Below are positions 9,755 to 11,951 of a DNA stretch of 33,583 bases, piece by piece. The stretch comes from an uncultured Oscillospiraceae bacterium. GTDB lineage: Bacteria > Bacillota > Clostridia > Oscillospirales > Acutalibacteraceae. The notes below the pieces were generated by a model, which was not told the origin of the DNA, made no database searches, and worked only from the letters and a program-made list of their open reading frames with translations. The DNA lies in NCBI GenBank assembly GCA_900546785.1, contig URED01000026.1, positions 1-33,583 of the forward strand, in the 5' to 3' direction. The first letter of the stretch is position 1; every line of letters starts with the position of its first letter. Both the position numbers and the translations under genes were made by a program.

Positions 9755-9806
9755 CGATTTTTAAAATTATAGTTTCTACCAAAACTCTCTTTTTCTATTG
9801 GAATAG

Positions 9807-9835
9807 TTGACTTTTCATCGTATGGTATATATAAT
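9807..9835 (+). promoter_or_regulatory. Strong promoter of the structured RNA / HNH unit
   Basis: TTGACT (9807-9812), a 17-bp spacer and TATAAT (9830-9835) are near consensus. The expected start point is about 9842, which is some 355 nt before the HNH start codon, far longer than a normal leader. Confidence 0.8.
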
Positions 9836-9841
9836 TTGAAT

Positions 9842-10174
9842 TGTAGGATATGTTAAATTTGAATCAGTTTGTATGCCGGATCGACGAGAAATTCCAAAGA
9901 ACAACCGGGTTCGAAACGCCTACGATGAAAAAATTGTAATTCTGAGATACTATCAACATCGATTGAAATTCTCGTTACGATGCTGAGAACCCACAAGATA
10001 GGCTCCGAGAGATATTTATCTCTTTTGAGGTGAGCCCAAGTTGCTGTATCAAAGCTTTACACCATACAACATTAGGCAACGGCTTCGGCTGATGTCTTTG
10101 TTGCTATGTGTGTAAAGTTTCGACTCGGATCGTTGATGCCTGTACACACATGGTTGTGTATGGGCTTTTATTTT
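9842..10174 (+). ncRNA. Candidate structured ncRNA or regulatory leader before HNH nuclease
   Basis: This roughly 330-nt stretch has no credible ORF but is framed by a strong promoter and a terminator. Many complementary pieces are visible: TTGTAGG (9841-9847) with CCTACGA (9919-9925); ACGAGAA (9884-9890) with TTCTCGT (9969-9975); GGGTTC (9907-9912) with GAACCC (9987-9992); AGAGAT/ATCTCT (10008-10023) inside GGCTC/GAGCC (10001-10036); CTTTACAC (10055-10062) with GTGTAAAG (10110-10117) enclosing a CGGC-UUCG-GCTG tetraloop hairpin (10080-10091). Several of the first helices cross each other, so pseudoknots or alternative folds are implied. I do not recognise a known class; HEARO/omega-type RNAs also precede HNH-containing genes, but those encode IscB-like proteins, not this small HNH. 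Group I introns seem unlikely. Confidence 0.55.
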
Positions 10175-10182
10175 GATCCGGG
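10124..10182 (+). promoter_or_regulatory. Outer helix enclosing the terminator, next to the HNH ribosome-binding site
   Basis: CTCGGATC (10124-10131) can pair over 8 bp with GATCCGGG (10175-10182), enclosing the terminator hairpin and ending 2 nt before the GGAGGTGA site of the HNH gene. This could link RNA folding to read-through or translation. Confidence 0.45.
10138..10174 (+). terminator. Intrinsic terminator at the end of the structured RNA
   Basis: GCCTGTACACA (10138-10148) pairs with TGTGTATGGGC (10155-10165) over 11 positions including two wobble pairs, with a 6-nt loop, followed by TTTTATTTT (10166-10174). It lies before the HNH gene, so it either ends a separate RNA or attenuates expression of the gene. 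Confidence 0.75.
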
Positions 10183-10196
10183 TTGGAGGTGATACA

Positions 10197-10538
10197 ATGA
10201 AAATATGTAAATCCAATGCGTTGCGCCTGTGGGACGCATACTATGGCAATGTTCGTTTCGCAGAGGATTTCCATGGCAACCTAATGTGCAGAGACGGATA
10301 TGGAAATGCAGATTACTGCGTTATTCGTTGGGGAAGGACGGTATATTGCGGTTGGAATATCCACCATATACTGCCCATTGCTTGTGGAGGTACCAACGAA
10401 AAGCAAAATCTGATTTGTACAAATATCTATACCAATGATATGGCGGAAGATAAAATTACATATTGGATTGATGATTGCCTGTATCAGGTTCAACGCATAT
10501 ATGGTACACGAGAACATGAAATTGTTAAATTGAATTAG
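10197..10538 (+). CDS. Small HNH endonuclease
   Basis: A 113-residue protein with a C-terminal HNH (ββα-Me) nuclease core: GWNIHHILPIACGGTNEKQNL followed by TNIYTNDMAEDK, giving the His-His, Asn and Asn/His-position residues expected of the family. The N-terminal 60 residues are unassigned. ATG 10197 is chosen because GGAGGTGA (10185-10192) is ideally spaced. The gene follows a structured leader with its own terminator and precedes a 55-aa acidic protein by 10 bp, so the two are co-transcribed. HNH proteins of this size occur in mobile elements as homing or restriction nucleases. It lacks any RuvC domain, so it is not IscB or Cas9. Substrate unknown. Confidence 0.82.
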   Translation: MKICKSNALRLWDAYYGNVRFAEDFHGNLMCRDGYGNADYCVIRWGRTVYCGWNIHHILPIACGGTNEKQNLICTNIYTNDMAEDKITYWIDDCLYQVQRIYGTREHEIVKLN

Positions 10539-10548
10539 GAGGTCAAAT

Positions 10549-10716
10549 ATGGGAAAAAGTGTTTTTGACTACAATGACGGTGATTTTATCTTTTCTACAT
10601 CTTCTTTGGGATTTGATTCCGACGGAAATATGATGATGCATTTAGGAGACAACATGGCGCTGGAAGTGGATTCCGGAGAACTTCACATAGTTTCTTCGTG
10701 GGAGAACGAAGAATAA
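10549..10716 (+). CDS. 55-aa acidic protein paired with the HNH nuclease
   Basis: ATG 10549 follows AGGAGG with 6 nt spacing and the frame ends at TAA 10714-10716. The peptide is acidic (many Asp and Glu, ending W-E-N-E-E) with alternating polar and hydrophobic residues, suggesting a small beta-rich fold; there is no membrane segment. It begins 10 bp after the HNH stop and is followed by a strong terminator, so the pair forms a closed transcription unit. An acidic partner next to a nuclease could be an inhibitor or immunity protein, by analogy with DNA-mimic inhibitors, but that is inference. No family recognised. Confidence 0.65.
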   Translation: MGKSVFDYNDGDFIFSTSSLGFDSDGNMMMHLGDNMALEVDSGELHIVSSWENEE

Positions 10717-10728
10717 CGTGCTTTCATA

Positions 10729-10778
10729 TTAAAGTATCAGCCGCCTCGAAAGGGACGGCTGATACTTTAATATTTTTT
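10729..10778 (+). terminator. Terminator of the HNH unit
   Basis: A perfect 15-bp stem (TTAAAGTATCAGCCG 10729-10743 with its complement 10756-10770) has a 12-nt loop and is followed by TATTTTTT. It overlaps the end of the convergent HTH pseudogene. Confidence 0.85.
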
Positions 10779-11380
10779 CTCCGCACCTCCTTCGCTGTCT
10801 GCTGTGTGCAGGTCACGGATTTTCCGCCAGCTGGAAAAGCCTTGCAGGGTACGGATGTGCCACGGCGATTTGCGGGTGATGGTGCGGAAGTAGGTAGAGC
10901 AGAAGAACTCACCAAATAGACCTTCGGAATATGGTTGACATTGTTTTTTCGGAAAGACTTGATGTGCCCCTGATTGCACCAGTTGTTGATAGCGGTTTTT
11001 CCGTAGCCGGTGATTTTGGAGACCATCTGGGTGGTCAGTACATCGGGATAGCCGGAGAGCAGCTCGGTATAATACAGCCGCAAATGCTCCTGCACGATTG
11101 GGGGAACTTGTTTCTCCATCTGGACAGTATAATCACCTTTGTACCAGCCCGCCGGGGCGGAGTAGCTTTCGGGGAACACCTTGCGGTTTTCCAGATAGGC
11201 AATCACATCCTCTTTCTTGATTTTGTAGCAGCGAGTTTTCCTGCCCGTGTACTCGCAGGGGATTTTCCCGCTTTGGAGCAGATACAGGGCGGTGGATTTG
11301 CTGATGTGGCAAATTCGATACAGCTGATCCTTCGTGATTATATCGGGAACGGCGTCCCAGTTGATTGCGTTTTCTTTCAT
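10767..11380 (-). pseudogene. Two-HTH excisionase-like DNA-binding protein, frameshifted
   Basis: From ATG 11380 (GAGGTG upstream) the protein reads MKENAINWDAVPDIITKDQL and has two helix-turn-helix units: TKDQLYRICHISKSTALYLLQSGKIP with a C-Y-K-I-K-K-E-D-V wing, and a second around MVSKITGYGKTAINNWCNQGHIKS. After IPKVYLV (near 10917) the frame changes: the expected family continuation EFFCSTYFRTITRKSPWHIR is in another frame and runs to a TAA at 10767-10769. Loss of one G (GTGGAG to GTGAG) explains it. In the unshifted frame a low-complexity tail runs on to about 10724 through the opposite gene's terminator. Such proteins accompany recombinases in clostridial elements. The break could be real decay or a sequencing error. 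Confidence 0.72.
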
Positions 11381-11542: not shown

Positions 11543-11635
11543 TTCAAAAAATCCAGATTTCATGCGGGTTTGTAGGCGTACAAGGCTGACTGAAACTGAC
11601 AGAAGAAACCATGTAATTAACAGACGGCGATAAAA

Positions 11636-11691
11636 CTCGAAATCAGTTAGGGAGCAATCCCCCGCGAGTTCGAATCTCGCCGTCTCCGCCA
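11636..11691 (+). other. tRNA-Ser 3' fragment: element attachment site
   Basis: From the anticodon loop CTCGAAA (anticodon CGA) through TCAGT, a long variable arm (GGGA...TCCC), the T arm GCGAG-TTCGAAT-CTCGC and the acceptor strand with encoded CCA, this matches the 3' two-thirds of a tRNA-Ser. The sequence before it does not contain the D arm or a complementary acceptor, so the gene is incomplete. This is the classic remnant left where an element integrates into the 3' end of a tRNA gene. Minus-strand translations across it are spurious. Confidence 0.8.
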
Positions 11692-11930: not shown

Positions 11931-11951
11931 CGAATCTCGCCGTCTCCGCCA
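11931..11951 (+). repeat. Second copy of the tRNA-Ser 3' end (att-like)
   Basis: These 21 bp are identical to 11671-11691 (T-arm 3' strand, acceptor strand and CCA). The rest of the tRNA is absent. A second att core 240 bp downstream suggests an earlier integration/excision event or a remnant of a tandem tRNA. Between the copies (11729-11930) I see no gene. Just after it, GTCACGGAC/GTTCGTGGC (11957-11981) plus TTTTTT forms a terminator. Confidence 0.65.

Follow-up and report, generated by a model that had tools for sequence, protein, structure and literature searches.

A probable cis-acting, riboswitch-like leader RNA upstream of a small HNH nuclease gene on mobile DNA

The transcription-attenuating riboswitches of Firmicutes are 5' leaders in which an antiterminator competes with an intrinsic terminator for control of the gene that follows. 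Structured RNAs are also neighbors of nuclease genes in other settings: the HEARO/IscB omega RNA precedes an HNH-containing gene, type III toxin-antitoxin loci run in the order RNA, terminator, nuclease, and HNH genes are often carried on introns. Here, we describe a leader of about 350 nucleotides (nt; about 9842-10196) in front of a gene for a putative HNH nuclease of 113 amino acids (aa), found in contig URED01000026.1 of an uncultured Oscillospiraceae bacterium (assembly GCA_900546785.1; 33,583 nt, the whole stretch of DNA that was analyzed and is called the window below). A first-pass annotation, made from the letters of the window, had described a promoter, a structured leader, a terminator, the HNH gene, a gene for an acidic protein and a second terminator, and this layout was borne out, as all of these elements were located in the window. 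Complementary segments, some of them crossing, were found in the leader as the annotation had described.

Alternative folds of the leader

From the comparison of related loci, the RNA is quite probably a riboswitch-like leader acting in cis, with control over the transcription and perhaps also the translation of the following gene, usually that of the HNH protein. From among the three readings offered by the first-pass annotation, the riboswitch-like attenuator gained support from two mutually exclusive, covarying folds, while the reading of a nuclease that uses the RNA was weakened and that of a nuclease with a dedicated inhibitor found no support. Judged by comparison, the helices P3, P4, P6 and P7, the terminator and the antiterminator are conserved, while P1 and a kissing loop between P2 and P4 are less evenly supported. 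The elements of the leader and the gene behind it are as follows.

9807..9835, + strand: predicted sigma-70-type promoter, TTGACT-17-TATAAT, 11 of 12 letters, its position kept in relatives
9840..9926, + strand: 5' domain, P1 (9840-9847 with 9919-9926) around the P2 hairpin, which contributes its loop ACGAGAA (9884-9890) to the kissing loop
9936..10053, + strand: core with the conserved GUAA (9936-9939), P3 (9946-9950 with 10046-10050), P4 and P5, from a 25-locus alignment
Inside the core, + strand: P4 (9954-9961 with 9978-9985) with the kissing loop UUCUCGU (9969-9975)
10054..10118, + strand: P6 switch hairpin, 13 pairs, from pair counts
10054-10066, + strand: 5' strand of P6, GCUUUACACCAUA
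10105-10118, + strand: 3' strand of P6, UAUG-U-GUGUAAAGU, with a bulged pyrimidine at 10109
10104..10153, + strand: antiterminator, P6 3' strand (10104-10114) with the terminator 5' arm (10143-10153), which excludes P6 and the terminator
10118..10188, + strand: outer helix P7 (10118-10132 with 10174-10188), which encloses the terminator and extends into the Shine-Dalgarno site
10138..10174, + strand: predicted intrinsic terminator between the RNA and the HNH gene, stem 10138-10165 and T-rich tail
10185..10191, + strand: Shine-Dalgarno sequence GGAGGTG of the HNH gene, read from the sequence and aligned in relatives
10197..10538, + strand: predicted HNH nuclease open reading frame (ORF), 113 aa

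Genome contigs supplied the DNA of 22 related loci and viral contigs that of 9, and a whole-genome search added one more (L039). Structure was assessed in an alignment of 25 loci (A3), from which the near-duplicates L001, L006, L011, L012, L030 and L039 and the re-fetched copies L032-L038 were omitted, as were L003 with its leader deletion and L004, L028 and L031 at contig ends. In this alignment, 86.6% of the cells of P3, P4 and P6 taken together are paired (P3 86.3%, P4 72.4%, P6 95.6%), 16 of the 27 pairs are altered on both sides, and there are 64 double-change cells, a result matched by 0 of 500 shuffles. Versions of the same helices slid out of register reach only 25-48%. The claim of structure beyond chance thus stands, with compensatory changes far in excess of both controls. 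Three of the 13 pairs of P6 carry changes on both sides and five are invariant; the latter are uninformative because they never vary. The outermost P3 pair and two P4 pairs are unpaired in about half of the loci, and the letters GUAA and ACUA are conserved though unpaired in the core. The leader as a whole folds at -113.7 kcal/mol (z -4.87), and none of 100 shuffles was equally stable. The UUCG tetraloop that the first-pass annotation had singled out lies inside P6 (10084-10087); none of the other 24 aligned loci shows it in this position, and it is therefore regarded as incidental.

An alternative partner for the 3' strand of P6 is the 5' arm of the terminator, with which it can form 8-13 contiguous pairs in 25 of 26 loci (A3 plus L003). 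The pyrimidine bulged from P6 is paired in the antiterminator, as C-G in 11, U-A in 13 and U-G in 2 of these 26 loci, one of the U-A pairs being that of L059 with its weak helix. In an exchange test on 25 loci, with L003 included and L067 left aside, the antiterminator duplex had a mean energy of -13.9 kcal/mol with the locus's own terminator versus -11.0 kcal/mol with exchanged terminators, a difference reached in 0 of 10,000 permutations; unrelated leader windows used as partner gave -3.5 kcal/mol. Related loci pair with one another about equally well in this test. A hairpin with a T-rich tail is present in all 25 loci, a count made without a chance control.

The computed energies favor the state with P6 and the terminator by 0-17 kcal/mol (mean 9.6; the 25 loci of A3, with the upstream core left out), and this state is the lowest in 24 of the 25 loci, with a margin of only 1.7 kcal/mol in L015. 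Because of these energies, the terminated state is likely the default, and synthesis of the nuclease would then require a signal. In L003, the leader (about 2700-2930) lacks P5, the 3' strand of P3 and the 5' strand of P6, and retains the antiterminator strand and the terminator. If real and not an assembly error, it would be a natural variant with a predicted permanent ON state.

In P7, sequence preceding the terminator pairs with sequence between the T tract and the Shine-Dalgarno site. It comprises 7-16 contiguous pairs in each of 25 loci (without L003 and with L067), and its mean score is 24.5 for own versus 14.9 for exchanged strands (0 of 10,000 permutations), the own strand being the best in 19 of 25. 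In L021 the best-scoring register is unlike the one expected by eye, and P7 of L005 is weak. Transcription reaches the 3' strand only upon read-through, and selection on P7 is therefore evidence for a role in the mRNA and not just in a free small RNA.

At the 5' end, the kissing pairing between the loops of P2 and P4 scored 17.3 for own versus 15.5 for exchanged loops (0 of 10,000 permutations), with kissing-loop letters that differ in L014, L023, L025, L026 and L059. The best partner in L005 lies outside the expected hairpin, and the flanking stem was not found in L021 and L027. The kissing loop is likely, and falls short of proof for every lineage. The place of the promoter is kept: in 18 of 24 loci (A3 minus L010, which is too short) the best site agrees in 10 or more of the 12 letters, compared with 6% of shuffled controls; L018, L020, L021, L022, L026 and L027 have weaker promoters. 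P1, which was scored without a chance control, begins 4-16 nt past the predicted -10 element in 17 of the 24 loci, which would leave no room for a guide there.

Promoter-like sites (4 observed, 3.6 in shuffled sequence) and terminator-like sites (1 versus 1.1) are not in excess by number alone. The only + strand ORF of at least 50 aa inside the leader is the start-extended HNH frame, and two minus-strand ORFs of 55 and 56 aa reach into it.

Distribution of the RNA and its neighboring genes

The same RNA can be recognized by eye upstream of the HNH genes of relatives. A covariance model of its core (R1) finds it beside 32 of 33 homologous HNH loci (the window, L001-L031 and L039, near-identical copies included). 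With the RNA conserved and covarying and no known RNA family matching the leader, none of the outcomes that the first-pass annotation had named as refuting its reading turned up. The sole non-match, L004, has 36 nt of upstream sequence; the leader of L003 is degraded, and L028 and L031 are cut off by contig ends. The core in the window scores 140 bits. Since most of the distinct loci went into building R1, the weight lies on the alignment statistics and not on the number of matches. No R1 match was obtained in 16 more distant HNH relatives (L040-L055).

By their titles, the 22 loci in genome contigs belong mainly to Clostridia groups, together with one Atopobiaceae metagenome-assembled genome and one unplaced bacterium, and the cassette of RNA and HNH gene resides in mobile DNA that belongs mainly to gut bacteria and to their viruses. 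Searches of phages and plasmids gave no match to the RNA with blastn; tblastn with the HNH protein returned one partial phage record (66%) and one distant match of 36%. A looser sequence-pattern scan yielded 13 stretches, among which those that R1 recognized as the RNA were already known HNH loci, L059 and L077 (the whole contig of L067), and none of the remaining stretches matched R1 at E 0.1. Genome searches with R1, with 9 or 19 candidates scored for each genome among those listed, were positive in 1 of 295 and 1 of 149 genomes, each time the center genome, with no further copy in the 442 others under strict filters that can miss copies. Near the Atopobiaceae HNH locus and outside the leader, an S-adenosylmethionine riboswitch scored over the gathering threshold (L034, 924-1010, minus strand).

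The 113-aa protein contains the beta-beta-alpha metal motif of the HNH superfamily with its conserved His and Asn and is likely a DNA-cutting HNH enzyme. It has 290 protein-cluster relatives at E 0.001 in a single-sequence query, 120 of them listed. That the nuclease lacks RuvC, as noted at first pass, was confirmed within these 113 aa: profile searches gave weak HNH matches only, and no second domain was found. Its HNH core resembles those of Cas9 and TasH, and matches to IscB and Cas9d profiles are weak and far under the cut-off (IscB NCBIfam, 16.6 bits versus 175). A good structure model built on 96 sequences was used in place of a poor first model (pLDDT, the predicted local distance difference test, of 57), and Foldseek found no match to it in PDB or among viral structures at E 0.001 or below. 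PADLOC gave no match among five proteins.

Two further elements lie behind the HNH gene.

10549..10716, + strand: ORF of the acidic protein, 55 aa, an optional partner
10726..10780, + strand: closing intrinsic terminator, 18-nt perfect arms (10726-10743/10756-10773) and T-rich tail, from an inverted-repeat search

The acidic ORF is present in 20 of 32 HNH loci and was not seen within 700 nt behind the HNH gene in the other 12 (L039 is outside the 32). Its family comprises 3432 protein clusters at E 0.001 with a profile query, a figure not strictly comparable with the 290 of the HNH protein, and a member occurs in L084 with neither an RNA nor an HNH match. Because the gene is an inconstant partner and belongs to a very large family, a dedicated inhibitor, as had been proposed, is unlikely. 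Members are short, acidic and rich in Met, consist of two similar halves, and have no Pfam match at cut-off. The idea of one compact unit fits promoter, RNA and HNH gene, which share common sharp similarity edges in several pairs of loci. This cassette, with or without the acidic gene, would travel as cargo of phages and integrated elements. In the window, a tRNA-like gene is represented at 11620-11691 by its 3' part, with T arm and CCA end, and the last 21 bases are repeated directly at 11931-11951; the two together likely mark an integration boundary of the cassette-bearing element.

On L059 and L067/L077, viral contigs of 4869 and 4298 bases, the gene behind the RNA encodes, in place of HNH, a His/Asn-rich protein of some 60-70 aa. 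Both keep the promoter, the RNA, the terminator, P7 and the Shine-Dalgarno sequence, with R1 scores of 121.8 and 120.9 bits, and a six-frame profile search of these contigs, with L029 and L084 as positive controls, detected neither the HNH nor the acidic protein. Relatives of the His/Asn-rich protein come after the HNH gene in L028-L031. This phage protein of about 60 aa has repeated NPNN motifs (L059 from about 4374 onward, L067 3001-3186, L063 1669-1842) and no Pfam match at cut-off. In L066 (about 2050-2233), a frame resembling the S subunit of type I restriction enzymes is followed by the C-terminal part of HNH only and then by the His/Asn-rich gene, and no RNA match was found there.

Proposed mechanism and rival explanations

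The alternative folds are conserved; which of them is on, whether the core senses something and whether termination takes place are deduced from sequence, and the following scheme is worded accordingly. The pseudoknotted core would hold P6 folded, the terminator would then form, and the HNH gene would be off. When P6 is prevented, its 3' strand would pair with the terminator 5' arm and polymerase would read through. The core may decide whether P6 holds by sensing something, with a small molecule, an ion, an RNA or a protein as candidate signals. In the read-through mRNA, P7 could form around the terminator beside the Shine-Dalgarno site, probably as a second point of control or of processing. 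The loop of P5 carries GGUG (window ~10029-10033) in most loci, apart from the type represented by L017, L019, L024 and L025. Pairing of this GGUG with CACC of the P6 5' strand is a possible means of opening P6, with letters that hardly vary.

Several points weigh against such a switch. The main doubt comes from the great stability of P6 (mean -27.8 kcal/mol), which makes its opener hard to see; P6 is also a local hairpin and not the closing helix of the core. The permutation tests ignore the relatedness of the loci, and the shuffled and slid controls both lean toward the structure, as it was drawn from these same, related sequences. Single loci also depart from the pattern: the antiterminator of L059 is weak, with 6 pairs, and all exchanged terminators outdo its own; L023 and L027 likewise do worse than most exchanges; and in L026 the antiterminator state ties with the terminated one. 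Kissing-loop scores of single loci are mostly at or slightly over the 95th percentile of shuffled loops (17.5), and those of L020 and L022 (13.0) are under the mean of these controls.

The best-surviving alternative, unlikely but worth weighing, is a variant of the attenuator in which the signal is a protein, either HNH itself or another encoded by the element, that binds the RNA in feedback on its own synthesis. The tight linkage of RNA and HNH gene and the OFF-type geometry of the switch would suit such feedback, whereas the RNA is retained before a different gene on contigs without HNH, and the conserved unpaired GUAA and ACUA, to judge by eye, resemble an aptamer more than a simple hairpin that binds protein.

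We consider it improbable that the terminated RNA of ~320 nt binds the HNH protein in trans, guiding, activating or restraining it in the manner of omega RNA and IscB. Such a role is consistent with the presence of the RNA beside nearly all HNH genes of the family and none of the 16 distant relatives, and with the likeness of the HNH core to Cas9 and TasH, even if the IscB and Cas9d matches are so weak. Promoter and terminator are both there, and being strong they would also fit an abundant trans-acting RNA, which counts against the switch. The RNA nevertheless occurs on two contigs without the HNH gene, most loci have no guide-like 5' extension (17 of 24), P7 is selected though missing from the terminated RNA, and no second domain was found in the 113 aa. 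The first of these points is itself softened, to the detriment of the switch, by the length of the two contigs (<5 kb), as the HNH gene may lie elsewhere in those phages. A combination, in which the leader is an attenuator and its terminated ~320-nt product also binds or controls the single-domain HNH enzyme in trans, is slightly more doubtful still. If true, the enzyme would be among the smallest RNA-dependent DNA nucleases, and the state of host or phage would be sensed by its own RNA.

A type III toxin-antitoxin-like locus, where a structured RNA neutralizes a toxic HNH enzyme, is very improbable: the order of RNA, terminator and nuclease agrees, but the leader has no tandem RNA repeats, the protein looks like an HNH domain and not like ToxN, and a covarying antiterminator and P7 would not be needed. 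Least credible of all is a self-splicing intron or a homing RNA accompanied by its endonuclease, for which the frequent carriage of HNH genes on introns and the apparent mobility of the cassette might speak, since the leader matches no intron family, permissive thresholds included, and the RNA has its own predicted promoter and interrupts no gene in the window.

On the riboswitch-like reading, this RNA, as a large class that covaries and has an explicit mechanism of switching, offers a ready target for ligand searches, and its signal would reveal what phages and integrated elements sense before a DNA-cutting enzyme is made.

Comparison with known RNA families and systems

The covariance-model search that the first-pass annotation had advised found no Rfam 15 family, introns included, that overlaps a leader, neither in the window at the gathering score or at E up to 10, nor in 20 relative loci at E up to 1 (six of one set of ten are re-fetched copies). 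The literature searched and the portion of the text of PMC8040213 that was covered name no such RNA; the supplementary tables of that paper, described as holding 16,482 putative models and possibly an earlier prediction, were outside the search.

Like type III toxin-antitoxin systems, the locus places an RNA gene, a terminator and a nuclease in one transcript; unlike them, it has no repeats, another nuclease fold and an optional third gene. The stand-alone HNH proteins of Clostridia (L040-L055) share a homologous HNH domain (E 4e-19 to 3e-4) but are without the RNA, and many are longer. In contrast to TIGR-Tas systems (TasH; PMC12045711), there is no spacer-repeat array, direct repeats of a tandem interspaced guide array being absent from 9780-10800, and 113 aa are too short for a Nop-type RNA-binding domain. 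HEARO/IscB omega RNA is similar in being a structured RNA directly upstream of an HNH-containing gene on mobile DNA. The present protein, however, is without RuvC and the rest of IscB, and the RNA shows no sign of a 5' guide and also precedes a non-HNH gene; no HEARO match was found with Rfam 15 in the window or the 20 relative loci, at permissive thresholds too.

The closest resemblance is to the transcription-attenuating riboswitches of Firmicutes, with which the RNA shares the position in a 5' leader, a pseudoknotted conserved core and a covarying antiterminator opposed to an intrinsic terminator. The leader is conserved with compensatory changes, and both exclusive structures are kept in 25 of 26 loci, L059 being weak. 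Judged by the lack of an Rfam 15 match and by the literature searched, the RNA is a new class within this known kind, set apart by its length of about 330 nt, by the additional covarying helix P7, which spans the terminator up to the Shine-Dalgarno site, and by its residence on mobile cassettes.
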